Shown here in pieces: positions 1,969-47,788 of a DNA stretch of 64,000 nucleotides (positions are counted from its first letter, which is position 1; the number at the start of each line of letters is the position of its first letter). The DNA is taken from NCBI RefSeq assembly GCF_932294415.1, contig NC_065542.1, forward strand, positions 40,513,942 to 40,577,941, given 5' to 3'. This DNA is from Quercus robur. Taxonomy: Eukaryota > Streptophyta > Magnoliopsida > Fagales > Fagaceae. The notes under the pieces were generated by a model that was given only the letters and a program-made list of their open reading frames with translations, was not told the DNA's origin and made no database searches. A program made the position numbers and the translations under genes.

Positions 1969-3960
1969 CTTTTTTTTTTTTTTTTTTTTGGGTGTAATTC
2001 AGCTTTTATTCATTGAAACAAACACAAATTATAAAGGGGGGTCCCAAACAAAGAAAAAAACTAGCATAGGCTCCCTGCTACGGCAACCAAGATACAAAAC
2101 TAACTACAAAACCAAAGCCAAAACAAATGGCAAAGCAAAACATACTAACAACTAAAAAAAATACATCATTAATGCATCCAAACCAACACCTTTAGCACAG
2201 TAGCACACCGACAACACAATAGCACTCTGGCAAAACACATCAGCATAGGATTTCTAGGATCAAGTTAAAATACTACTTGGATCAATCCCCAATTACAACA
2301 GATGGTAGCCAAAACTAACTTCTTGAACTTCGTTCTAAACCTTAGCCTAGCTTTGACATCCTTAATGATGCTTCTCTTTAGCTATTCTTTAGTCTAAATT
2401 CTTTCTTCATGAACCATGTCTTTCCTTCGTAGCCAAATGTGGTAGACCGTTGCCTACCATGCAAGTTTGCAAACTATTACTCTTAGCCCCTTCCCTTTTA
2501 ACTCTCTAGCCCCCAAGCAATCAAGTTCTCCCACACAAACAACATTTGAAACTAGACACAACTTCATCATGTCATCCCAAATTCTTCTAGTGACAACATT
2601 AAAAAGAGAGATGATCTCTACTTTCAAGGCAATTTCTAAAAAAAACACATAAGCTATCACCCAAGAATCTCCACTTGGCCATTCAATCTCGTGTAGACAG
2701 CTTATTGATTACAACTAACCAACCAATAAACGAATTATTTCATGATAGTTAAATGGAACAAAGCAACTTCCATCACTCAACTTCGCTAGATTTATCTCTA
2801 AGCTCAATAGGGGTGTTCACAATGCAGTGTGGTGTGGTGTGGTTTTGGGCCATTTTTAGCACCGCACTTTGTGGTGCGGTTTAGCTAAAATCATAATTGC
2901 ATCGCATCTTGTTTTTGCGGTCACATGTATGGAGTGGTGCGGTTTAGAGTTTAGCCAAAACCATAACCGCACCACACCTCATTTTTGCAGTCACATATGC
3001 GATACTATGTATAAGATGCGGTTTGAAGTCGGTATATTTTTCAAATTTTGGGCTTTTCTTACTCGGCCCAAAACTAATTTTTCCCTTTTTTTGGGCCAAG
3101 TTTTAAATTATTGGGCTAGTTTTTCTTTATTTTGGGTTGGCTTTTCTAGTCAACACTTGCTAGAGTTATTAAACTTTTTTTTATATAGAAAACTAGGGTT
3201 ATAAAATTATTAATAATATATTTAATATTAAAAATAAATAAATATATTAATATATAGAGAAGGTGCGGTGTGGTGCGGTTTGTGCGATTTTCTTATTATA
3301 AAACCGCAAACCGCACTGCACCATGCGGTGCGGTGTGGTTATGCCATTTTGTGGGCGATTTTGGTACGGTTGTTGCGGTTTATGCGGTTTGGTGAACACC
3401 CCTAAAGCTCAACATATGTTGTAGCACAAGAAAACTTCCCAAATTTAGTAACTTGACAAAGGGCTTTATCCTTATCTTTATGCTTAACATGAAATAGTTG
3501 ACTCTAAATAGTTAAAAGGGCATCAGATCTATCTGGCCTCCAATTCCATTTATTATCTTTTAACACAAAATCCACTTTAGCTTTAGGATTACTTGTAGCA
3601 TCATAAATGACACAGAAGCTATATAACCAAAACCCTAGCAACATCATAAATACTTTTTTTTTTTTTTTTTTTTTACCAAAGTGATCCAATCCTTACCAAA
3701 ACCAAATCTATTTCATATTTTTATGATGAAAGACCACTTCATAATTTTTCTCCATGTCTACCTATAATGTCAAAAATCCTTGCTTGCCTTTCATTTTTCT
3801 CTTTGCATGGGTAATCTCTTTAGCAATTGCAGGGTTTGTGTTGGATTACCCTTATTGAGACAAAAACTCATTGTCAAGGGGATATTCATTTTCATGGCTA
3901 TCAAGGCTCTTAAGATGAGAGTTATCTCTTTTCTCTATAATGGTTTGGGGAAATCTTAGA
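1969..3960 (-). mobile_element. L1-type LINE 3' fragment interrupted by a hAT MITE
   Basis: The poly-T at 1969-1989 is the A-tail of a minus-strand retroposon. Reading the minus strand, about 3610-3504 encodes VIYDATSNPKAK and then WNWRPDRSDAL. About 2560-2400 encodes ARELKGKGLR-VCKLAW-ATVYHIW. Both are typical of the region after the reverse transcriptase in plant L1 LINEs. The frame is broken many times. A 597 bp hAT element at 2808-3404 splits the copy. The upstream (higher-coordinate) limit is uncertain. Confidence 0.55.
2808..3404. mobile_element. Non-autonomous hAT element (MITE), 597 bp
   Basis: Terminal inverted repeats are TAGGGGTGTTCAC at the left and its exact complement GTGAACACCCCTA at the right. 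A perfect 8 bp target-site duplication, AAGCTCAA, flanks it at 2800-2807 and 3405-3412. The 8 bp duplication and TAGGG ends are hallmarks of the hAT superfamily. There is no transposase frame. The interior is unusually rich in GTGCGGT and its complement ACCGCAC, mostly near both ends, which suggests subterminal transposase-binding repeats. It lies inside a LINE remnant, so it is younger than that LINE. Confidence 0.88.
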
Positions 3961-4281
3961 CATCTCAGATGAAATTCATGTCTCTTCGCATCTTTTTAAG
4001 TAATGTTTGTTAATATTTGGCTACTAGTCATTGAGTAGAATCAGTCAACCTAAAAATTAAATAAAACAAATTATATTATAGTGATGCTAGCAATATTTAA
4101 AAAAAGTAAACTAATAGTAAAAAAAGAAAAATCAATTAATATATATATAAATAGATAGATATACTGATATAGATAATAATAATCTAAGTTATAGGTCTAT
4201 TTTAGCCAATCAAATAAATCTATAAAGTACGAGGGTGTACAAATAAGTATCAAATTTATATTATTATTATTATTATTTATT

Positions 4282-4900
4282 TATTTATTTTTAGAAGAAA
4301 GACATCCATTTCATTAAATCAAAGAGGTATTGATTGATATGAACTATATGAGAAATATCTGATGGTATATCTTCCATTCAGATAGGTAATATGGGCAATA
4401 TAAATGCCCACGTAGTGAGAGAGTGTGCAACAAAATTCCCTTGATAACGTACATAAGAAAAATTAATACAAGAGAAATGAGAAGCCAAAAGTTTTATGTC
4501 TTTGATTAGATGACCATGCAATGCTAAGGATGACTTAGGGTTTATAAGATCTTTAAAAATAATCTTTGAATCACCCTCAACAGTTGCATGCGTGAATCGT
4601 AATACCTACTTCCAAAGCAAAATTCATAGTATTTATGGCTACTAAAGCTTCAACTTGTGCTATACGACATGGGATGGGAATTTGCTCAGATAAAGATGCT
4701 ATAACCAGACCCTCAGAATCACGAATGACTACCCTAATTCTTGCTTTGTTCTCCTTAGTAAAAATTGCTCCATTGAAATTGACTTGGAAACAATTTGAAT
4801 CCAGCGGTTTCTATTGAACTTGCCGAGTAAAAGATTAGTCGAGTAGAGCTCGTCTTTCGTTCTCTTGAAACTCTAATTATTTGATTCATTGGGCAAGCTT
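4282..4900 (-). mobile_element. LINE 3' end, RNase H domain fragment
   Basis: The minus strand from about 4830 down to 4590 reads as the RNase H domain of a plant L1 LINE. Recognisable blocks are NFNGAIFTKENKARIRVVIRDSEG, quoted here only as NFNGAIF and RVVIRDSEG, then VIASLSEQIPIPC. A degraded tail follows towards 4282. It matches in kind the RNase H domain of the LINE at 44525-46854. The copy is 5'-truncated and dead. Confidence 0.6.
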
Positions 4901-7730: not shown

Positions 7731-8587
7731 ATGTTTCAAACCAAACCCACATTTTCTCTTCTCTTCTCTTCTCTTCATTTCTTTGCTCTTGTCTTCTCTC
7801 CCCATATGGTCAAAACACACACTCCAACTCTCAATCTTTGATTTCTTAACAAAAAAGAAAAAAAAAAAAAACTATTTTTTAAAATTTTTCTTGGAATGCT
7901 CTCTTAGTTTTTATTTTTGGGTCTTAAATTTTTTTTCCTTGCACAGTTTGTTGTGTAATTATATATGTCTGCATGACTCAATCATATAATATGGGTATTG
8001 CTTTCTCTTTATTTGGATATTTGTCAGATTCCACAAAAAAAGATAATCTTGAAATGGGTTTGTGGCTTTGTTTGATTCTGATGTGTTCCATTCACTGATT
8101 CACTGTCCTTGGCGCTTCTAGATCTGTTTGCGGCTCTGCTCGATCCACTGCTTTTCTTTTTTCTTGCTTTACCATTACCCACAAGGTCAGATCATGGCAA
8201 ATATATATAAATTTTTTTTCTTCTTCTTTGGAAGTTTATAGTTGTTGCTTTGTTTCTCTACTTTCAGCTTCCTATTTCTAGTTGATGAGAGAATTTAGTT
8301 GCTTTGAACTATTTAGTGATGCACAAAAGAGTTGGCTTTTGTGTTGTACACTAGTTCTATGAAAAACAAAACACAATAGGGTCTCTCTCTACTGTTTAAT
8401 GCTTTGAGTCTGAGAACTTGATGATGCATAGGTACCAGAATAACAATAAGGTGGTTGGGGGGTTTACTGGGTTTTTGCCAATTAGGCTGAATTCTTTGAT
8501 TCTTCTATATTTGGTCATGGTGCATAGTTACATAAACCCTCCATCTCAGAGGTATATGATATAAGTCCTGAGAGTGTGTTCTAAGTA

Positions 8588-11500
8588 ATGGGTAACGGCA
8601 CTTCTCGTGTTGTTGGTTGTTTTGTGCCATTTAGTGGGAAAAATGGTGTTGATATAGAGTTCTTAGACCCACTAGATGAAGGATTAGGCCATTCCTTCTG
8701 TTATGTTAGGCCATCAATTTTTGAATCTCCTGCCATTACCCCTTCAAACTCTGAAAGGTATACTGTTGATTCAAGTACTCTTGATTCGGAAACGTTAAGT
8801 GGGTCGTTTAGACATGACATGATAGATGATCCCTCGGGGTTTCATAGACCAATCAAGAGCATCCCGGAAACCACATTTAAAACCATTTCGGGTGCTTCAG
8901 TCAGTGCCAATGTTTCTACAGCTCGGACTGGTAACCAGAGTGCACTGTTTTCCAGTGATGTCCAAGAGCCTGCTGCATCATTTGATTGCACCTCCTCATT
9001 TGCTGCAATCCCTTTGCAGCCTGTACCTCATTGCTCTGGACCATTGAATGGGTTCATGTCTGGACCTCTTGAGAGAGGTTTTGCTTCAGGCCCTTTGGAA
9101 AGGGGAGGTGGTTTCATGTCTGGGCCAATTGAGAAGGGAGTAATGTCTGGTCCACTTGATACTACTGATAAATCTAACTTCTCTGCACCGCTTGCACATG
9201 TTCATCGAAGACCAGGCCTCCAGCGTCTCATGAGGAGTGTGAGTGGGCCAATGAAGAGTGCTTTCTCCCGGACCTTCTCAAAACATTCTGTTGGGCCTGG
9301 TTGGATGCAACGGTTTTTCTTGCACCCAGTGTCTCAATTGGCCTGGCATCCCAAGGAGCCAAAGTTTCGACCAGAAGCCTCGCGAAACTGTCCTGAAGGA
9401 GGCCCATCGGAAGGGGAGTACAGATGTACTCAAAACTTGCAATGGGCTCATGGAAAGGCTGGTGAAGATAGGGTTCAAGTTGTGCTTTCTGAAGAACAAG
9501 GATGGTTGTTTATTGGGATATATGATGGTTTTAGTGGGCCAGATGCTCCAGATTTTCTGATGAGCCATCTTTATAAAGCTATAGACATAGAACTGGAAGG
9601 ACTGCTTTGGGATTATGAAGATAAACCTCTTAATGATCCTTTGAAACCTGAACTCCATAGCACTGGAAATACAGAAGTGGCTTCAGAGCTCTGCAAGGAG
9701 GACCAGCTGAATCCTTCTTGTAGTGGACTTTCTTGTAGTTTAGAGGAATCATGTATCCCAGGAATTGTTAGAGGTCAATCTTCTAACTTTGAAATAGTTG
9801 AGGAAAATGAGGAAGTTCGGATCAGTGTTGAACCCAATTGTGAAAAGCCCAGCGTCTCAGGAATACCAGCTACTTCTGTTCCAATTGCAAATTTGACAGG
9901 TCAAGGCAGAAAAAGCATGCGGCTCTATGAGCTACTTCAGATGGAACCTTGGGATGGGCAAGGTTCTATGTTAATCTCAGAGGTTGGGAACCGAAAAAAG
10001 GTTTCACGGGATTGTCAATCGAGCCAAGAAACTTTGGATTCTAGGGAAACCTTACAAGAAGATCAAGTAAGATCTTGCTCATTGAACCCCAAAGGAGATA
10101 CTTGTAGCCTTCGGGGTGAAGATCCCACTACTTCAGGTGAGGATCAAGCAGTTAGGGTTGATTCCATTAATCATGGTGCTGTCACTGCTCTTTCTGGTTC
10201 AAGACACAGGCAGAATACTAGAAAGTCATTAATCAGTTCAAAGATTAGAAAAATGTATCGGAAGCAAAAGTCCCTGCGTAAGAAACTTTTTCCTTGGAGT
10301 TATGATTGGCACAGAGAGGAGACTTGTGTTGATGAGAGAATGATTGAACCCTCGGGACCTATTAGGAGATGCAAATATGGTGTTATTGATCACGATGCGG
10401 TTTTAAGAGCAATGGCTCGAGCTCTTGAGAGGACTGAAGAGGCTTACATGGAAATGGTGGAAAAGGCTCACGACAAAAACCCAGAGCTTGCTTTGATGGG
10501 TTCATGTGTTCTAGTGATGTTAATGAAGGATCAAGATGTGTATGTCATGAACCTGGGGGATAGCCGTGTGATCTTGGCTCAAGAAAGACCAAATGACCGT
10601 TATCCTAATCCAAGTTTTTTGAAAGATGATGCAAGGCATGGGAATAGATCCAGGGAGTCATTAGTGCGCATGGAGCTGGACAGAATATCAGAGGACTCTC
10701 CAATGCATAATCAGCACGGTCAGGTTAGCAAGTTAAATAAAAACAGGGAGATTTCGATGTGCAGATTAAAGATGAAAGCAGTTCAGCTTTCCACTGATCA
10801 CAGCACAAGTGTCGAACAGGTGTGTTTCCAGTTTTGTTAATGGTTCAATATGATTGTTTTTACTTGCCTTTTTTCTAATGAATTTATATTATTTTGGTTT
10901 GTGGATTCTATCTTTGATGTTTCTCAAGTACTCTTTTTTTCTTTGTGATTTTGTAAATTATAGAATAGTGCCAATGGCTTGGGCCAATTGGCATCTCCAT
11001 CATCCATAAGTATGGGGCAGTGGGTTAGGCTGGGGGTTAGAGTTTCCTTAGGTGTGAGTAAATTACTCTGCAAATGAAAAAAAAGGGACAAAAATCTAAA
11101 ACAGTGCTTTGTGCCTGTCCTCATTTGTGTTTCTTCATTTGAATGTCAGATTTATAGAACTTATGGACTATGGCTACCAAAATGTCCTCTCCATATTACG
11201 CTTACATTTTTTGGTTCCGTTATACTGGGAAAAAAAACATATATCTTGTAAATTATTGCCATTTTGGTGCGTGTCTTGAATTTAATTTCTAGTTTCTGTG
11301 TACTTTACATGTGATCATGAAATACTTGTCATGCTCTGTAACAGTAATTAGTCATTTGGTGAAAGAACAGTAGTAGTCATTGCACAGTAATTGAAACTAA
11401 ATGGCAGAATTTCGCTGCCAAATCCATGCCAAATGGTGGTTTAACCAACCAGTTGTCTGGAGTTTTGTTCATAAATTGAGATAAACTTCATATGTAACCT

Positions 11501-13472
11501 GCTTTCATATAGGTTTTTTTTTTTTTTTTTTTTGGTTGGGGGGGGGGGGGGAATTAGATTAAATTTTAATAAATGGTATATATCTAAACCCAGAAATGGA
11601 TTGAGGAAGAAAAATTGTGATGAAATTTTGTTATTCTGTACCAACAATTTGTGCTCTTTTATTGCCTGCTGCAGGAAGTAATTAGAATTAGGGCAGAACA
11701 TCCGGATGACAACCAGGCTGTATTCAATGATCGAGTGAAGGGACAATTGAAGGTCACCAGAGCATTTGGTGCTGGTTTCCTGAAGAGGGTCAGTTGCTCT
11801 TGTAAATTTGACATATTTAAAAAGTTGTTTCTTAGCGGCAGAACATTCTTAGGAAGTTTATTTCTTTGAACATTTTAGCACAAATTCAGCTATATGATGG
11901 ATATGTTATGTCTGTGTACCTTTTGTACTTACGCCTGGCTAACTGATTAGGTTGCTAGATACCTGAAAATAGAGAATGAAATGCAACTGCAGGGAAACAT
12001 GCATATATTATATTATAATTTTTTGGTTATGTATCAAATAATGATTGCTGTTTTAAATATTCTGGTAACATGATTATTTTTTCCCAAGTTTTTCAGTAGG
12101 TTTTCTGAATAGAAACTGATCATGCTTGCTTTGTACCTGTTGTCCACTTTGGGCTCTATCTTTGATAGTGCTAGAACTATTATTGGTAAGGGTCACACAA
12201 GCATTAGATAAATTACATGGTACTCGCATGTTTTATAATGTTATTATCTGTATTTGACCTCATGTTGGATGGTCTACTCTTGCTGACCCCAATTTAATTG
12301 AGATTTAGGTTTAGTCGAGTTGAGTTAGACAGTTCACTCTTGTTTGCTTCAATATGGATTGTGTTTTCTACCAAGCGCTACTTTGCTTATAATGCATCTT
12401 AACATTATATGTGACCACAATAAAGTTGAGATCAAGTAACTCTAAGTGGTGGACAAAAACCACTGTGCATCCTTTCATCTGTGGCTGCCTGAAAGAAGTG
12501 TCATTGATGTCTAACTTTGACCATATGTTTTCAGCCCATTTATTTTAGATTTATTTTTGTGTCATTGCATTGATTTATAATTGAGGGAAATTTTTTAATA
12601 TTTTCACTTGTTGGATGCAGCCAAATTGTAATGAAGCTCTGTTGGAGATGTTTCAGATTGATTATGTGGGAACTGTTCCTTATGTCAGCTGCATTCCTTC
12701 CATTCGTCACCATCGACTGTCTTCAAGTGATCGATTCCTGGTTCTCTCTTCTGATGGACTTTACCAGTACTTTAGCAATGAAGAGGTAATTGCCCATGTA
12801 ACTTGGTTCATGGAAAATGTTCCTGAAGGTGATCCTGCTCAGTACCTCATTGCAGAGCTTCTCTTCCGTGCTGCCAAAAAGAATGGTCAGTTGATTAACA
12901 TTAACTTACTAGTCCTTGTTTTAGCAGTTCATGAAAGCTTAAATTGAATCACACTTGTTAAAAAGAAAAATGAAAAAGAAAAACCTTCAATGTGATGAGA
13001 GGAGTAGAATGTACACTCTTTCAGTTTAGCATGCACAAGGGAACACCTTGCCTTTGTATGTTCCAGCAAGCACAGTTTCGGGCTGAAGTAGTGGCAAATT
13101 TCTGACACAGCTTGATAATTTGTTAGACTATTTTGGAAAGGTTCAAAGCCAGTTTAGAGAAAGTTGATATTGTTGTGAATGATATTTCCTCAGATTGAGG
13201 TGCTTTTGTATATTTGCTGCAGGAACTTTTGTTTTACAGATTGAGGACTAATTGGTGAAAACACCATGAAAGAGAATTTTTATGGAAGAATGGTACTAAT
13301 TGATATTTGATTGTATTAGCTTTCTTATTCTTATGAATGCTTCTTGATGATTGTAGGAATGGATTTTCATGAATTGCTGGATATTCCTCAAGGGGATCGA
13401 CGTAAATATCATGATGATGTTTCTGTTATGGTGGTTTCACTGGAGGGAAGGATCTGGAGATCATCTGGATAA
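8588..13472 (+). CDS. POL: POLTERGEIST-like protein phosphatase 2C
   Basis: Four coding exons (8588-10819, 11675-11788, 12621-12885, 13357-13472) join in consistent phases into a 908-residue protein. Residues 1-12, [12 protein letters not shown], fit N-myristoylation at Gly2 and likely palmitoylation at Cys11, as known for POL and PLL1, so it should sit at the plasma membrane. Residues 155-190 carry SGPLERG-type repeats. The split PP2C domain has GEDRVQ (292-297), YDGFSG (312-317, metal-binding Asp313), [29 protein letters not shown] and DDVSVMV. A variable insert of about 250 residues separates the first motifs from the rest, usual for this clade. In Arabidopsis, POL dephosphorylation acts downstream of CLAVATA receptors in stem-cell and vascular patterning. 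The N-terminus and motifs closely resemble my memory of Arabidopsis POL (At2g46920). The protein ends at WRSSG, where I recall Arabidopsis POL having a short extra tail. Confidence 0.95.
10955..11095 (+). repeat. SINE-like unit in POL intron 1
   Basis: A segment with TGGCTTGGGCCAATTGGCA (A-box-like) and GGGGTTAGAGTTTCC (B-box-like) is followed by an A-rich run. It lies in the first intron after the coding start. The assignment rests only on the box-like motifs and is weak. Confidence 0.3.
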
Positions 13473-15111: not shown

Positions 15112-15819
15112 ATGATACTAAAAGAACTTGTCAAAGTTAAACAAAATTTATGATATTAAAACTAAAAGAACTTAAAAAAGTAATGTCAGTAATGAGATTA
15201 TATGAAAAGTAATATAAGCTTATTCATTTCAAGTGTTGCGAAAAATGTGGTGTTTTTTTTTTTTTTTTTTTTTATTGTCATCTTCAAGCAAGGTAAATTT
15301 TTGTTCGAGTAAGAGCATCCACAGCAGTGGAGCTAAATTTTTAGCAATTTAGCTCCACTAAAAGTTACTTTCTCTATTTTACCTACACACATGCTGCAGC
15401 AGTGGATCTATTTTAGCTTTCAACATAATAAAATAATATAAACATCACAATAAAATATTATATCTACTACAATAAAATAATATATTCCACTACCAAAAAA
15501 ATATTACACCACCAACCTCAATCACCTCTATCGTCAACCACAGGCACAACCACCACTACCACCACCACCACCATCACCACCATCACCACCGGCGGCAGTC
15601 CACAAAAAAAAAAATAATAAAATAAAAAAAAATAAAAAGAAAGAAACCCACAACGAGCACAAGCCCACTGCCACAAACACAAATACAAGTCCACTTGCCC
15701 ACAACAGATCGGAAAACACCACCACCACCACCACCACTACCGGCAGTCCACAGCAAAAAAAAAAAAAAAAAAAATCCCACAACGAGTACAAAAAAACAAA
15801 ACCCACATCAGAGCTAGCA

Positions 15820-16066
15820 GTCCCGGTCCATAGTACCGACTCCAACGGTCATGATCCAGGGTGCCACGTTGGCCAATGAGGCTCTGGTAGGCCCACTGTT
15901 TCCGGCAGAGCAAGAGACGAAAATGCCCTTCTCAACCGCCGTGGAAGCTCCGATTGCGATGGTGTCTCTGTAATACGGAGCTTACCCACCGCCGAGAGAG
16001 AGCGAAAGCACGTCCACGCCGTCGCTTATGGCTTGATCCATACCCGCAAGAATATCGGATCCGAAG
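15820..16066 (-). pseudogene. Captured subtilisin-like protease (SBT1-type) fragment
   Basis: On the minus strand the frame reads [18 protein letters not shown] then LSLSLGGG, a stop, [39 protein letters not shown] and TMDRD. These are, in order, the conserved blocks between the catalytic His and Ser regions of plant S8 subtilases of the ARA12/SBT1 type, including the Asn-containing SAGNSGP motif. The fragment covers about 80-85 residues of a protein of about 760. It has one in-frame stop and no start, and ends in unrelated sequence shortly after DRD. It is therefore a non-functional exon piece carried by the surrounding Harbinger element, not a resident gene. Confidence 0.88.
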
Positions 16067-16339
16067 CACGTCCACGTCCACGCCGGCGAGCTGAGGGATG
16101 AGAGAGGCCGTCCACGCCGTCATTATCGAGCTGAGGGATGAGGGAGGCCGGCGAGCTGAGGGATGAGAGAGGCCGGCGAGCTAGAGATGGGTGAGGGAGA
16201 TGAGTGTTTGTTTGATGATTGAGGGAGATGAGAGTGCACGGTGAAGGAATGAAATAAAGGGATGAAAAAAAAAAAAGATTAGTTTGATTATTTTATTCGG
16301 TAGTGGGAGTAAAAAATTATTTTTTTTGTTTAGATGAGT

Positions 16340-16377
16340 GCTACAGTGCACATCTATAGATAGATGTGCACTGTAGC
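16340..16377. repeat. Perfect 18 bp hairpin in Harbinger element 1
   Basis: GCTACAGTGCACATCTAT (16340-16357), two bases, then its exact reverse complement (16360-16377). It lies about 110 bp inside the right end of the element. The core ACAGTGC/GCACTGT is shared with the hairpin at 30205-30238. Confidence 0.95.
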
Positions 16378-16489
16378 AAATAAGCTAAATTTTTTACCTT
16401 TGGCTCCACTGCTGCAGGTCCTTTTTGCTATATTGGTGGAGCTAAAATAACATTATAGCTTTTTAGCTCCACTGCTGCAAATGCTCTAA

Positions 16490-17197: not shown

Positions 17198-18086
17198 ATG
17201 GTGGCAAAAGTTCTTGCATATCTGATCCTCTTTGCTGCAATCTCTAGCACTGTCACATCCGATCCTGACACCCTTCAGGATCTCTGCGTCGCTGCTCCTT
17301 CTTCAGGTATGGTTAATGTTGCTTTTGGTATCACTCACTCAATGGATTAGACCAAATCTAAATATTCTCTCTCTCTAATTAGTGTAAAAGTCCATACATT
17401 GTTAGATTCAAGAAATAAAATCTTAACTAGGAAACGGATTCCTGTTCCCCAAATCTTGTGGTTGTTTATTTATAGTTTATACATCATTGACTTGTTGATT
17501 AAATGTACATTTTGGTGTATGTATGCATTATATGATAGGGGTAAAGGTGAACGGGTTTGCTTGCAAGGAAGAGGCAAATGTTACAGCAGCTGATTTCTTC
17601 TTTGACGGCCTAGCTAAGCCAGGAGTTGTTAACAGCTCAGTTGGATCACTTGTTACAGCGGCCAATGTGGACAAGATTCCAGGCCTAAACACACTAGGTG
17701 TTTCACTGTCCCGTATTGACTATGCACCTGGTGGCCTTAACCCACCTCACACTCACCCTCGCGCCACTGAGATTGTGTTTGTGTTAGAGGGAGAATTGGA
17801 TGTTGGGTTCATCACTACAGCAAACAAGCTCATCACCAAGACCATCAAGAAAGGTGACATCTATGTGTTCCCAAAAGCTCTTGTTCATTATCAGAAAAAC
17901 AATGGTGACAAGGCTGCTTCTGTGATCTCTGCCTTTAATAGCCAATTGCCTGGCACTCAATCCATTGCTGCTACACTTTTTACGGCAACACCCGCCGTGC
18001 CAGACGACGTTTTAACTAAGGCCTTTCAGGTTGGTACCAAGGAGATTGACAAAATCAAATCAAAGCTTGCTCCCAAGAAGAGTTAG
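17198..18086 (+). CDS. Germin-like protein (subfamily 2 type)
   Basis: Two exons (17198-17306 and 17539-18086, phase 1 junction) give a 218-residue secreted cupin. Residues 1-21 form a hydrophobic signal peptide ending near VTSDPD. Cys30 and Cys45 (NGFAC) are the conserved disulfide pair. Germin box 1 is GLNPPHTHPRATE with metal ligands His107, His109 and Glu114; box 2 is KGDIYVFPKALVHYQKN with His153. Possible N-glycosylation sites are Asn50 and Asn68. A KGD motif replaces the RGD seen in some relatives. Germin-like proteins form apoplastic, metal-binding oligomers; some have superoxide dismutase or oxalate oxidase activity, but activity cannot be read from sequence. The ISR... conserved blocks LNTLGVSLSRIDYAPGG and FNSQLPGTQSIA point to subfamily 2. 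The track-style start at 17523 is inside the intron; the true start precedes the signal peptide. Confidence 0.94.
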
Positions 18087-28925: not shown

Positions 28926-29200
28926 CACCTTTTTGTGTGAACAAAATATGGATTAAATGGAAGAGAAAATAACAATTTTTTTTATAGTAAAAAAAATTGG
29001 AAGAAGAGAAGTCAAAATAAAAGGAAGATGAAGGGATAGAAAAATTGTAAGATTAATGTGTAGAGTAGTGGGGAGATAAAAAAGGTAAAAGTAAGTAAAT
29101 GTTGGAGAAGGTGTAATTGTAAAGTGGCAAATTAATAAGGAGAAAAATAATTAAAAATGAGAGAGAAAATATTGAAAATAGGTTGATGATGTGACGCTAA

Positions 29201-30350
29201 GAGCATTCTTATCAAGGATTGCAAAAAATTTAACATTTACCCTCTCAAAACCCAATTTTATAACATATAACACACTATTTTACAACATCACTTCCATCAA
29301 AACTTCTATTTTTTTTAACATTCCATTTAAATATTCTTTCTTTATCATTTTTTATTTTTCCTTATCTCTCCTCTGTCTCTCTCTTCCTCAACCCAATTAT
29401 TCTCAGCACCGCCGGCCACCGCATCCACCCACGCATACCACAACCACCACATCCACCCACCATCGCCACCACCAGCCACCAGTCAGGTCCACCGCAACCA
29501 CAAACAACAGCAGAGAAAAAAAGAAGAAGAAAAACCTCCACATCCATCCACCACATCCACATCCACCGTTGGACCAAAAAAAAAATCAATAGCAATTGGA
29601 CCAAATCACCACCAACCACAGCAAGAAAAAAAGGAAAAAAACCCACAAACCACGGCCAAATCGAACCACAACCCACAATAAAAAAAAACCCACAAACCAA
29701 ATCAACCAAATCGGACCACGACTCCTTCGATCAACGCTCCGACCTGTGCTCCATGGTTGACCACCAAGCTCCGTCGCACAATTGGAGCCCAATCGGACCC
29801 AAGAAGAACCACGCAGAACCAAAAAAAAAAAAAAAAAACCTCCATTGCCACCACCAGACCACAGCCATCGGCATCCCACAATCGCCGGAGCACAATCATC
29901 CGCAGAGCCCACTCATCGGCGAACCACATTGATGAAGCACAGAGAGAGAAGAGAGAAGAAAGAAGTGAGAGAGGAAAGAGAAAGATAGAGCAAAGAGAGA
30001 GCATTGAGTGAATAAAAAAAAATTTTGGCTTGGCTTGATACTCCGGCCTGGGTTTCGTCGGAGAGGGAGGTGTCGAGCAGAGGGAGAGAGAGAGCAGAGA
30101 AATGATGAGAGGTAAGAAACGGGAAATGAGAAAGACAAAGACAAAGAAGAAAAGAAAGTTGGCCCCACTTGAATAAAAAATTAATATAAATTTTACCATT
30201 GGTAAACAGTGCGGTCTCAAATATGAGACCGCACTGTTCATCAATGCAAAAAATTATAGCTTTTACCACTCTTGATGGAGCAAGCTTTTGGGTCAAATAT
30301 GCTAAAAAAAAAGCATCTTTTAGCATTTAAAACCCTTAATGGGAATGCTC
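29201..30350. mobile_element. PIF/Harbinger-type element 2
   Basis: The 1150 bp element begins GAGCATTCTTATCAAGG and ends, on the minus strand, GAGCATTCCCATTAAGG. It has TAA duplications at 29198-29200 and 30351-30353. Like element 1 at 15313-16486 it has a CCACC-rich middle, A-rich tracts, a GA-rich block and a perfect hairpin about 115 bp from the right end. Reading frames inside are low-complexity and I recognise no captured gene. There is no transposase, so it is non-autonomous. Confidence 0.82.
30205..30238. repeat. Perfect 15 bp hairpin in Harbinger element 2
   Basis: AACAGTGCGGTCTCA, a 4-base loop AATA, then the exact complement TGAGACCGCACTGTT. Position within the element and the ACAGTGC core match the hairpin of element 1. 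Confidence 0.95.
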
Positions 30351-30403
30351 TAATGTGGCTCAACAGGAGCGCAGTAACATTAAATTCTACTATTTAGTTT
30401 TTA

Positions 30404-35977: not shown

Positions 35978-37162
35978 TTAGAATTGAACGTTGCTGGTGA
36001 AGGACTGGCCAAAACTCCAATTGGAAGGTGCAACATCAAGAGCTGTGACGATCTTTCCATTGCTGGATTGCACTCTAAAGGACAAGCTCTGACCATTGAA
36101 ATAACTTAGACTCTGCCAGTTGACACCCCAATTTCTTGACATGGTTTCCCATTGGTTTGAATTAGACCCTTTGATCCAAACATTTGAGATATCTCCAGCT
36201 CCCCCTACGTTAGATATGAGCACTAGCTCGAAGTAATTTTTGCCATTGATGGTAAATCTAATGCCCCCACTCTTCTTGCATCCAACTCTGGTACAAACAA
36301 ATAGCATAAAATTAATGTCAATGTTATCATAATATAAGCAAGACTACAATTTGCACTTAGGTTATCATTTGCTAGAACAATTAATGCTACAGATACAACA
36401 AATTTTACAACTGCTGAGATGACAAATTGTGGTTAGTGTAATACCATTTTCACATGGGATTATCATTCACATCACTTTTAATCAGCAATTGTGAATTATA
36501 TTGTGAAACTAGAAGACAGCCAACCGAATAAGTATGTGAAAGAAAGTTAACATACTTCCTATAGAGAATAGGTACAATTCCAGCCTTGTATAAGGCAATT
36601 GTCTGGAATGCAGGTTGAGACATGTCGAAGTGTGGCAATGGAGGATTGCACCAACCACCATTGTCACTAGGGAGATCATAGTTTGGAGGACAAAAGTTTG
36701 TAGCAGTAATTGTAATGGAAGTTCCCCTGAGGCACCATTGGGGATCCTTGGTTCTGTCACACACTATCTGATAGCACCCACCACATGACTTGCCATCGTT
36801 GAACAAAGCCGTGCTAAGTGCGGCAGTTTTTGTGCCATAACCATCGGTGTTAAGATTTCCATAACCACAGGCACCCCCTGATAAAAGAGAACCAATATTC
36901 GTCACCAAATGTTGTAACATATATTTATCCATGTCAGTACATATATATGGAAAGGTTGAAACTTGAAATGTTGATAATAATAATATATATAAAGAAGGAA
37001 ACATGAAATAAGAAAGTACTTACCCATTGTTCCTGAAGCATCACTTCCACCGTAAAAAGTTGCATGGGCTTGAATCCAAGAAGCTGCCATTGTTACACTG
37101 AATTTTGTGGTGAACACCCCCAGAAACAATACAAAACTAGTAAATAAATGGAGCTGTTCCAT
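35978..37162 (-). CDS. Alpha-expansin (EXPA)
   Basis: Three minus-strand exons (37162-37024, 36877-36556, 36287-35978) join in phase into 256 residues, normal for alpha-expansins. The signal peptide is about residues 1-26. Domain 1 (GH45-like) has [22 protein letters not shown], here abbreviated HATFYGG and [16 protein letters not shown], and the HFD motif at 129-131. Domain 2 (CBM63) has [17 protein letters not shown], and aromatic binding residues in WIKGS and RNWGVNWQS. It ends SFTSNVQF. Expansins loosen cell walls at acid pH without hydrolysing them. The start was set at MEQLHLF because upstream codons are a GA-repeat leader. Intron 2 carries a MITE-like remnant near 36388. The VGCKKSGG variant of the usual VPCRKRGG block sets it apart from the main growth-related EXPA clade; the exact orthologue is unknown. 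Confidence 0.95.
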
Positions 37163-43148: not shown

Positions 43149-46100
43149 TGCGAGACTAGGAACTTGGGTGCTCTCAAAAAAGAGATTCAGGTACTTTAAG
43201 GCACCTCTCTTTTTGGGTAAGTGGTGTGGAGTCGCCACTTATTTTTTTATACAAAAAGAAAAAGAAAAAATAAATACAATTACATATTCAAAATACTTCA
43301 AATGTTATTGATTGAATAAAAAAAGTACAATTTGGTAGATTAACCTTACAAGTCTTTGGTCCTAGTTACAATCTATGCAAAAAAAAAAGAAAAGAAAAAA
43401 CTACGAAACTTTGGTCCTAGTTACATTCTACCAAAACTAAAGACAAAACACTAATCTACTAACCAAAATCCTAAGTTCAGGGGCTAGGTTATGGAATGGG
43501 AAGGTGTTAGGCACCCATTCCGCCCAGGCAGAATTTAGTCTTCTAGACTCTAATGACCATTGTATATCCTTTTGTATTGATGTTGAATGATATGTTATAA
43601 TACACATGACGAACACTTGACAAAGTTAATTTAAACAAATTTGTCTTATGGATATGTCCTCTTTTCAAAGAAAAATCAGATTTGTCTTGAAAATTTAAAA
43701 AAGAAAAAAGAAAAAAAGAGATTTGATTAAGAAAAATCAGATTTGTTTTTGTAAAGGAAAAAAAATGAGATTTGATTTGAGAAAAATCAGATCTATTTTT
43801 TTGTAAAGTTAAAAAAAATGAGATTTCATTTGAAAAAATCAAATCTGTTTTCTTAAAGGAAAAAAAGAAAAAAAGAGATTTTCTTAAAAAGAATAAGATT
43901 TGTTTTGAAAAGTTAAAAAAAAAATGAAATTTGATTTGTAAAAATCAGATCCATTTTTGAAAGTAAATAAAAAAGACTTTTAAAAGAGGATTCACATTCA
44001 TGAGACAAACTTACTATGCATGCATCACATATTAAAAAGAAAGACTTTAACTTAACTCTTAATTCCTTCTTTGAAATTTCAAAATCTGCAATTTTATATA
44101 TATAAAAAAAAACTTTTTCAAAAAAAATTTCAGATCTATATTTAATGAAAATATAGATCCATTTTATGACCAGAAAAATACAGATTTGTATTTAATGAAA
44201 ATACAGATAAGTTTTGAGATCAGAAAAAAATTCAGATTTGTATCTAAGGAAAATACAGATTAGTTTTGTGTTTGAAAAAAAATTCAGACTGCATTTAAGG
44301 AAAATACAGACTAGTTTTGTGTTTGAAATTTTTTTTTTTTTTTGATGATCATTAGCAGATTTTGAAATCAAAGAAAAAATTAAAAAAGACAATCAACTAA
44401 AGAACATGTCAAAAAAAATTCCAACTAAGTATCTAAGCATGGCAAACATGAATTAAGAACAAGGCACAATAAAAATCAAACATATTAACCAAATTCATGC
44501 AATGAACAATCATAACATATTAATTAATGGAGAGGATGGGCTTCAGTAGGCAATGGATAAACCTTATATCAGCTTGTATTAGTACTGTGACGTACTCTAT
44601 ACTTGTAAATGGAGAACCCAAGGGCAACATCATTCCTACGAGAGGCATCAGACAAGGTGATCATTTATCTCCTTATCTATTTTTGCTGTGTTCAGAAGGG
44701 TTGACAGGTCTTATAAAACAAGTTGTAAATGAAGATAAAATCAGGGGCTTTTCTCTTTGTAGAAGAGGCCCAAAGATTTCACATTTGTTTTTTGCGGATG
44801 ATAGTCTGCTCTTTTGTCGTGCTCAAATGGGAGATAGTCAGTGTATCCTAAGTATTCTAGAAAAATATGAGAGGGCTTTGGGGCAGAAAATTAATAAAGC
44901 TAAAACCACTCTGTTTTTTAGCAAAAATGTATCTACTCCCACAAAAAATTCTATATAGGAATTTCTTGGAGTCCCTGAAATTAAAGAGTATGAGAAATAC
45001 CTTGGTCTGCTAGCAGTGGTAGGAATGAATAGAAGAGCAAGCCTAAATTTCATCAAAGAGAGAGTTTGGGGTAAAATTCAGGGATGGAAGGAAAAATTGC
45101 TCTCCCAAGCAGGTAAAGAGGTATTGCTAAAATCTATTGTTCAAGCCATACCCACCTTTGCAATGAATTGTTTCCGGTTACCTGTGGGATTATGTAAAGA
45201 TATAGAAGCTATGACGATGAAATTTTGGTGGGGTCAAAGGGGAGATCGGAGGAAAATTCACTGGAAGAGCTGGGATGTGCTATGTAGACCAAAAGATGAA
45301 GGTGGTATAGGGTTTAAAGACTTGTGCAGGTTCAATGAAGCAATGCTAGCAAGCCAGGTGTGGAGGCTGATTCATCATACAGACTCTCTCTTTTTTAAAG
45401 TATTCAAGGCTAAATATTTTCCCAACAGTTCCATCTTTGAGGCGAAACCAAATTCAGGCTCTTATGCTTGGAGAAGCATATTGAAGGCAAGGGCAAGATG
45501 GCGTGTGGGTGTGGCAGAACAATCAGAGTATTTGCAAACAAATGGTTACCTGGGAATAATGGAAGCCGAATCTTATCTCCAAACAATTCACTCCCTAGTA
45601 CCTGCATGGTGTCAGACGTAATTGATCATGATTCAAGGGACTGGAATTACCATTTAATTGACGCTTCTTTTGCCCCTGTAGAGGCAAGCCTGATTAAAGC
45701 TATTCCCTTGAGCGCTCTGCCACAAAAAGACTTATTATACTGGCCACTAGAAAGGTTTGGAGACTATACGGTCAAATCCGGGTACAAAATGCTCTGTGAA
45801 GAGAGCAGAAGAGAGGAAGCTGCATCCTCAAATCGGGAAGCCAGCAAAGCTTTGTGGAGAGGAATATGGAAGACGTCTACCCCAGGAAAGGTTAAACATT
45901 TCCTATGGAAGGCCTGTTCTAATGCTCTGCCAGTAAAACTCAACCTAGTGAAACGAAAATTTTTGGAGGAAGATGTTTGTCAGGTTTGTAATAAGGAATC
46001 TGAAACAATTTCCCATGCTCTATGGGAATGTGAAGTGTTGCAGGAGGTGTGGAGCAAAAATTCGGATGGGTGGATAGAGGTCAAGCACGGCATGGTTCTT

Positions 46101-47788
46101 TTTGTGATTTAGTTGCCTGGATTCAAGGAAAACATCAGCTCATTGATCTCTTTGCCACGACAGCTTGGTTTATATGGTGTAGAAGAAACAAAGTGCGCCT
46201 CAACGAACCAGTGATCCCACTAAATAAAATTGCAGATGAAGCTCTACACTACCTCAGGACATATAGAAACGGGCATAGCAAAGAGAAGAGGAAGACACCG
46301 AGAGGTAAAATAAAATGGAGCCCTCCACCATCTGGAATGTTTAAGACTAATTTCGACAGCGCGGTATTTGAAGAGTCAGGAGAGGCAGGCATAGGGGTGG
46401 TAATTCGAAATTCTGCAGGAGAGGTGATGGCTTCCTTATCTGAAAAAATCCCACTTCCTGCCACGGTTGAAGCTGTGGAGATGCTTGCTGCCCGTCGTGC
46501 AGTCAGATTTGTGCAAGAAGTGGGGCTAGCTGAATCTATATTTGAAGGTGATTCTCAATCTGTCATCTTAGCCTTACAAAGAAATACTATGGTGAATTCT
46601 GGTATAGGTCATTTAGTAAAAGATGTATTATCATCTGTAACTCTCTTCGGAGATGGTCATTCTCTCATACGTATAGGCAAGGCAATGCTGTGGTACATAC
46701 TTTAGCTAGGAGAGCTAGACTTTGTGAATCATATGAAGTATGGATGGAAGATGTCCCTCTAGAAATTACTGTTGTTTTTTTAGCTAATTTTGCAGTAAGA
46801 TGAATAAATATAAGTTGATGGTTTCCTCAAAAAAAAAAAAAAAAACAAAAAAAAGATACCTCTTGCATGAGCGTGCTCTTCAACAGAAGAATACTTTAGA
46901 AATCAAAGAAGTTTTTACTTCTTTGAGGTCTAAAATACTTTACTTATAAAAAAGAAGTTCTTAAAGCAAAAACCTCCAAAACGTCTTTAACGTAAGGGGA
47001 GTAGAGAAGTCAGAAAGGAAGAACCCCTAATTTTGATCTTTTTCCTCTATATATAGAGGTTGGGATGCTTAAAAAATAAGTTGAATGAGATCAGATCCGA
47101 ATTGGAACGCGTCCTTATCTCTAAAGATTTGAAAAAGATAAGTTTTATCTCAATTAGGAGGTTCCTAGGCCGAGCCACACATTTGGGCCAATCAGCACTT
47201 GGGAAGTTGAACCTCTTAGGTGCCAGGCCCGCGTTCGAGTTTTGGTTCAATTTGGACTCCTTTTTTTGAGGATTGTTGAGTCGGAAATTGCACCTAGACG
47301 TGTTTTTGATTCGTATTCTAAAAATGAATTCATTTTTCTTGATATTTAGGTCTTTAAAGTGATAATTGTCTTATAGATAAATATTCTAAAAAGACTTAAT
47401 TATCTACAATTTCTTTGTTATCTGATTATCCACTTTATTCCCATGCAAGCAGGCTTATTTTTGACACTAACTCACAACCAATCACAAAATTATTTAATTA
47501 ATTTTAATTGTTTAACTAATCATAATTAATTTAAATTAATCACGCGTGGTTGGTTCCACCCAAACAAACATGCGGACCGTGAAAACTTGATCATGTGATA
47601 TCTTTCAATCTGATGGTCTAATTTGGAAATCAGACATACCGTCGCATCCGTTAGAATCTCAAGATCTTTTTTATGATATGCAATGAATGAATTAATGCAT
47701 GTAATGAAACTCTAAATTTTGGGTATATGAATGGTTACTCTACCCATCTTCCAAGATTAAATTATGAGTGCAAAATCTAGTGTCTACA
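43149..47788 (+). mobile_element. LTR-type element nested in the left LTR
   Basis: Begins TGCGAGACTAGG and ends TGTCTACA. It is flanked by a 5 bp duplication (ATATG at 43144-43148, ATATA at 47789-47793). The right LTR at 53480 shows the same site uninterrupted. Blocks GGAGTCGCCACTT and GAAGGTGTTAGGCACCC mark it as the same family as 48345-50113. It is a fossil solo LTR or LARD-like piece, later interrupted by a LINE. Confidence 0.7.
44525..46854 (+). mobile_element. 5'-truncated L1-type LINE
   Basis: ORF2 enters in mid reverse transcriptase (MERMGFSRQWINLIS) and runs through TRGIRQGDHLSPYLF, the catalytic HLFFADDSLLF (near 44785) and the thumb. Next is a zf-RVT domain (PGKVKHFLWKACSNALP, CQVC, HALWECE, about 45890-46040), then RNase H (NFDSAVF, GIGVVIRNSAGE, EGDSQS, about 46335-46560). 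It ends at the TGA at 46801. A poly-A tail follows at 46829-46854. The frame has one in-frame stop (44956-44958) and frameshifts near 45510, 46090 and 46670, so it is defective but relatively young. Only about the last 755 residues of a protein of about 1300 remain, as expected from incomplete reverse transcription. I could not match target-site duplications. Confidence 0.9.

Follow-up and report, generated by a model that had tools for sequence, protein, structure and literature searches.

A PIF/Harbinger-type element of Quercus robur carrying a captured piece of a subtilase gene

Introduction

Pack-MULEs are elements of the Mutator type with a target duplication of about 9 bp, and Helitrons are rolling-circle elements with neither terminal inverted repeats (TIRs) nor a target duplication. 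Tourist-like MITEs are non-autonomous and multicopy with a TWA duplication; they are usually shorter and usually lack cargo. Plant Pack-MULEs and gene-capturing Helitrons carry pieces of host genes on transposons, as does the element described here, but belong to other superfamilies.

The closest described elements are the Pack-PIFs of maize and rice, of which one group holds a host-gene piece internally and another group does not; the passages on their origin propose a fusion of neighbouring insertions (PMC8903248; PLoS Genetics, 2022). For animal Pack-TIRs, gap filling or FoSTeST has been described, with microhomology at the breakpoints and a multicopy state after transposition, and the relevant passage calls the applicability of these models to plant Pack-MULEs worth exploring (PMC8277862). 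A 2026 review on gene capture in plants does not use the terms Harbinger, gap repair or filler in its main text, and its template-switching passages concern retrotransposons (PMC13317346). Insertions next to genes are the subject of passages in PMC8495827. No earlier report of the present Quercus robur family was found in the open-licence literature.

Materials and methods

The window is the whole stretch of 64 000 nucleotides that was analysed (Q. robur assembly GCF_932294415.1, contig NC_065542.1, positions 40,513,942–40,577,941). Positions without a label refer to it; L numbers denote loci and C numbers contigs. The search of the organism's own genome covered 785.7 Mb in 42 contigs, and the copy numbers given are lower bounds. 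40 copies were analysed, comprising 39 fetched loci and the window copy. A tree of 39 copies was built from the element ends only and rooted at the midpoint, with L025 excluded as a composite.

For the protein comparisons of the subtilase piece, the query carried X at the stop position. 88 interior ORFs (at least 55 amino acids, low-complexity ORFs excluded) from the 29 copies without the subtilase piece were scanned against Pfam. The sharing of bases expected at random joins was calculated from a formula and also simulated, using the subtilase donor and L024. Synonymous and non-synonymous counts were limited to L012–L016, the counts for the window copy, L009, L010 and L011 being unreliable because the alignment was forced to accommodate their rearranged ends. 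Both window elements served as a positive control for the end scan of transposase loci L088–L094 and were recovered.

Results

The element and its ends

The sequence-only reading of the window had placed a Harbinger-type transposon with inverted ends and a TAA duplication at this locus. The boundaries proved to be exact: 22 of the 25 terminal positions are identical between the inverted ends, and TAA stands on both sides. The features are listed below.

15313..16486, plus strand: apparently non-autonomous PIF/Harbinger-type element, 1174 bp, recognized by its ends and target-site duplication and multicopy in its own genome
15310..15312, no strand: left target-site duplication, TAA
16487..16489, no strand: right target-site duplication, TAA
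15313..15337, plus strand: left terminal inverted repeat
16462..16486, minus strand: right terminal inverted repeat
15821..16069, minus strand: captured subtilase piece with one in-frame stop, 95.6% identical to donor L062 4082–4330 (C40)
16070..16115, no strand: rearranged, with short repeats; more donor sequence is retained here in sibling copies
16116..16128, minus strand: 13-bp remnant of the donor 5' junction
16339..16378, no strand: subterminal palindrome, perfect 19-bp stem

A scan of the window for inverted-end pairs flanked by TAA or TTA, with at least 14 of 20 matches, gave 35 pairs, and the left-end GC exceeds 25% in two of these only (15313–16486, 60%; 29201–30350, 35%). A cruder control with random 100-mer pairs did not single out the element ends, six of 4974 pairs scoring as high; this control is not decisive for the TIRs because AT-rich and simple sequence is common in the window. 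Genomic copies with duplications are stronger evidence for an element than end statistics from the window alone. A perfect stem of at least 12 bp lies within the last 230 nucleotides in 37 of the 40 copies; it is not always the palindrome at 16339–16378, and the one near the end of L020 differs from it. The TIR pattern gave no match in the viral contigs searched.

The pair at 29201–30350 belongs to a second element of 1150 bp with TAA at 29198–29200 and 30351–30353, which is similar in build, has different ends and is multicopy in the genome. A palindrome near 30206–30238 was seen by eye. Pfam comparison of 44 ORFs from eight copies of this second family, including that of the window, gave a best E value of 0.0032 and no convincing cargo. 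Also by eye, and from ORFs, the window appears to hold a PP2C-like gene (8585–12947), a germin-like ORF (17499–18086) whose start lies some 1 kb downstream of the first element, an expansin-like gene (35978–37019) and a broken LINE-type retroelement (44524–46705).

Copies in the Q. robur genome

The element search gave at least 129 matches (40 of 2222 first-look candidates scored). Among the 40 copies analysed, 11 hold the subtilase piece, five hold a 3-beta-HSD-like piece and 24 have no recognized cargo; 29 of 40 thus lack the subtilase piece. The sequence-only reading had made its case depend on inverted ends in other copies, and other copies have them, with TAA/TTA duplications. Identical 3-bp flanks were called automatically in 26 of 40 copies (TAA or TTA in 25, TCA in one); some of the remaining 14 have mis-called ends, such as L013 with six left-end mismatches. 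Copy length is 846–1269 bp in 38 copies, and 1482 and 2312 bp in the other two.

Classification and transposase source

The element is best classed as a Pack-PIF, a kind described in the passages of PMC8903248, so gene capture by a Harbinger element, as proposed from the window, was already in print. Its 3-bp TAA/TTA duplications (25 of 40 copies) and TIRs (22 of 25 positions) are those of PIF/Harbinger elements, and the identifiable donors (C40:1266081 and C2:16278904) are those expected of a Pack-TYPE element. Mobilization followed capture, the 11 copies with the subtilase piece lying at separate loci, six of them with identical 3-bp flanks. A Pack-MULE was ruled out by the 3-bp rather than 9-bp (approximate) duplication, and a Helitron by the presence of TIRs and a target-site duplication. 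The family differs from Tourist-like MITEs in that most copies are 846–1269 bp long and some have cargo.

PF13359 (DDE_Tnp_4) was absent among the Pfam matches of the 88 interior ORFs (at least 55 amino acids) from the 29 sibling copies; the genome holds at least 177 matches to it (150 of 895 candidates scored). The family ends were found at none of the seven transposase loci L088–L094, of which 6.4–7.4 kb each was covered, so that ends could lie outside. A stricter scan of L072–L079 gave one lone left-end-like match, in L075.

The subtilase piece and its donor

The sequence-only reading had taken the minus strand of the interior for a plant subtilase, and database comparison upholds this. 16 solved sequences match the minus-strand reading, the best plant subtilase chain being 7eox_A (E = 1.4e-23), with cucumisin 3vta and subtilisin-like protease 3i6s also among them; PF00082 matches with E = 1.4e-8 (34.8 bits, cut-off 21.8). 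The three protein blocks first picked out, joined alone, gave no subtilase match. The subtilase similarity stops inside the element.

A genome search with the piece found 13 places: 11 element copies, a 52-bp paralog match (C5:25856434, 88%) and one donor gene (C40:1266081–1266329, 96%), the single clear parent that had been sought. The donor has I9, S8, PA and fn3_6 domains in L062 3312–4940 and 5210–5896, two reading frames with a predicted join. The earlier term 'subtilase exon' was right as to a captured subtilase but not as to a whole exon, the piece being internal to donor exon 1.

The piece is present in the window copy and in L009–L018. Donor bases 3929–4330 or 4333 are retained in L012–L016 (402–405 bp, 95–96%) and 4011–4333 in L011; L017 and L018 match 3929–4258 with an internal deletion, and the window copy, L009 and L010 match 4082–4330 (249 bp). 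The window copy is a trimmed and rearranged version of the 402–405 bp capture, of which 249 bp and the 13-bp remnant are left. A 12-bp repeat near 16109 was considered as a copy of the piece and dropped, the siblings showing 16116–16128 to be the remnant of the donor 5' junction.

A second cargo

Pfam comparison of the 88 ORFs gave 3Beta_HSD in four ORFs (best E = 1.8e-7) and Epimerase in two. Other matches, namely New_glue (three ORFs, best E = 1e-4) and NST1, HVSL and others (E = 0.002–0.01), look like low complexity or chance. By DNA comparison with the donor, the 3-beta-HSD-like (HSD) piece is present in L037, L039, L043, L045 and L046, five of the 11 copies compared. A 326-bp HSD query matched five elements, one gene (C2:16278904, 96%) and 39 bp on C35 (93%) in the genome. 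The captured segment, in a sister lineage, is 386 bp long; the donor part, L084 1441–1826, includes the start codon and first codons of a gene with a 3Beta_HSD domain. L043 has extra DNA at about 748–1064, part of which resembles retroelement coding sequence by eye.

Empty relatives and the tree of ends

L024 shares the backbone but lacks the subtilase piece; its joint points enclose 151 bp of older interior. This interior is matched nearly throughout in L019, L020, L021 and L025 (87–94%), and also in L033 (97% over 113 bp) and L027 (73%). Since about 150 bp of older interior occupy the site of the piece in L024, the capture replaced resident DNA. In the HSD case, a segment of 70 bp is enclosed by the joint points of the empty copy L041; it is likewise whole in L029, L042, L044 and L047 (95–100%), which are also empty, and 61 bp of it are present in L034.

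The tree contains a set of 14 rows (support 100/98) made up of all 11 subtilase copies with L024, L031 and L032, the last two having a different interior. L019, L020, L021, L027 and L033 branch apart from this set, and since the L024 interior is shared by copies outside it, the absence of the piece is read as the older state. Parsimony on the tree needs two changes for subtilase and two for HSD, with a single change in 9% and 11%, respectively, of 200 bootstrap trees. These shares are low because L015 pairs with the empty L024 (93/87) and because the HSD copies mix with the empty L042 and L047; a single gain of either cargo would therefore not be established by the tree alone.

Joints

GGATTT (6 bp) at the 3' joint of the subtilase piece is common to the donor (CCGGGATTTCCC), to L011 and L016 (CCGGGATTTTTGC in L016) and to the empty L024 (GGTGGATTTTTGC on the reverse strand). 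It is readable in these two of the 11 subtilase copies only; the flank differs in the remaining nine, which we assume to be a later change. CG (2 bp) is common at the 5' joint. The right HSD joint shares CGGCG (5 bp). The left one shares AG; it exceeds 2 bp only if one mismatch is allowed, which extends it to CACRAG. At random joins, sharing of at least 2 bp is expected in 16%, of at least 5 bp in 0.46–0.59% and of at least 6 bp in 0.13–0.18%.

Later decay

TAA replaces a donor serine codon in seven of the 11 copies (the window copy, L009, L010, L012, L013, L017 and L018), and frame-changing gaps are present in L013 (1 bp) and L015 (5 bp). Against the donor, the differences fixed in all five of L012–L016 are four synonymous and one non-synonymous; their variable sites are 15 synonymous and 26 non-synonymous, not different from neutral (p = 0.11). 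L014 and L016 retain open frames of 194 and 163 codons, respectively, that span the piece wholly or partly, so coding loss is not universal. The captured pieces look neutral and decaying.

Discussion

A Harbinger-type element with a captured subtilase piece is confirmed at this locus. For its origin, the likely course is that the Pack-PIF formed by template switching into the subtilase donor and was then spread by a transposase acting in trans. We infer the following order of steps. A break or stalled fork would have arisen in the interior of an ancestor resembling L024, and about 405 bp of exon 1 would have been taken over by repair synthesis from the subtilase gene, which lies on a different contig. 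The switch may have been guided by the short matches at the two ends (GGATTT and CG), with about 150 bp of resident DNA replaced. The chimera would then have been mobilized in trans and have reached at least 11 loci, later copies gaining the stop, deletions and rearrangements, and the window copy losing the 5' part of the donor sequence. In the sister lineage, 386 bp of the 3-beta-HSD-like gene would have replaced the 70-bp interior segment, apparently by the same route.

Template switching into this donor is supported by the sole long match outside the family lying in a gene with S8, I9, PA and fn3_6 domains. Against it stand the 6-bp joint being readable in two of 11 copies, the frequency of joints of 2 bp or more among random joins (16%), the mismatch needed to lengthen the left HSD joint, the two changes per cargo on the tree, the lack of family ends in the regions covered at seven transposase loci, and the location of the donors, which are on different contigs or distant. 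It is difficult to distinguish template switching from end joining with a free donor fragment.

According to the model published for Pack-PIFs along with other Pack-TYPE elements (passages of PMC8903248), two neighbouring insertions flanking a donor segment would have fused, the outer ends being used and the inner ends lost. L025, a 2.3-kb composite of two head-to-tail copies, has the structure that such a fusion needs. However, the joints examined show no TIR core, and searches for the 13-base core over 9.9 kb at the subtilase donor and about 3.3 kb at the HSD donor found none; L062 has a lone GAGCATC at 8130. Nor does fusion predict that the backbone bases bordering the piece are those that border the older interior in empty copies. 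The joint microhomology (6 + 2 bp for subtilase, 5 + about 2 bp for HSD) favours template switching over it, and we consider fusion unlikely here.

Nested insertion, in which another mobile element carrying the subtilase piece landed in the element and then eroded, has precedent in the composite or nested copies of the family (L025 and L043). It appears improbable, as the 13 places with the piece include no repeat outside the element family and as resident DNA was replaced, not merely interrupted.

Equally improbable in our judgement, and compatible with any origin, is retention of the piece for an activity, for example as a source of antisense or small RNA against the donor. The 11 copies, their high identity to the donor and the palindrome near one end would suit such a role; the neutral-like variable sites of L012–L016 speak against it, for a protein role only.

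A resident subtilase pseudogene, beside which or into which the repeat had inserted, would account for the stop and the decayed look of the piece but was rejected as next to impossible, since the genome search and the element copies place the same piece in 11 elements at separate loci, six with identical 3-bp flanks by automatic call.

With template switching as the preferred origin, the family resembles the maize and rice Pack-PIFs in being apparently non-autonomous, in its TAA/TTA duplications, in the internal position of the piece in one group and its absence from another, and in its multicopy state after capture, and departs from the model given for them in the replaced resident interior, the short shared joint sequence and the lack of any sign of fused neighbours (passages of PMC8903248). 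Internal capture, breakpoint microhomology and a multicopy state are shared with animal Pack-TIRs, which favour nearby donors, whereas the Q. robur donors are not nearby (passages of PMC8277862). Animal gap filling/FoSTeST fits the captures better and the printed Pack-PIF fusion model less well.

A broader reading, to which we give about even weight, is that this PIF/Harbinger family repeatedly captures host genes by microhomology-guided template switching into an interior rich in repeats and then spreads the product, as a plant counterpart of gap filling/FoSTeST; on the same reading, the donor, empty and filled states of two independent events can be followed in one genome. Capture may be favoured by fragility of the low-complexity interior, with its A-tracts, CAC repeats and GA-rich tandem units. 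In print, the origin proposed for Pack-PIFs is fusion (passages of PMC8903248), while the animal studies prefer template switching and do not decide the case of plants (passages of PMC8277862). With the donor, the empty relatives and the filled copies of two separate captures in this family, these models can be compared by sequence alone.
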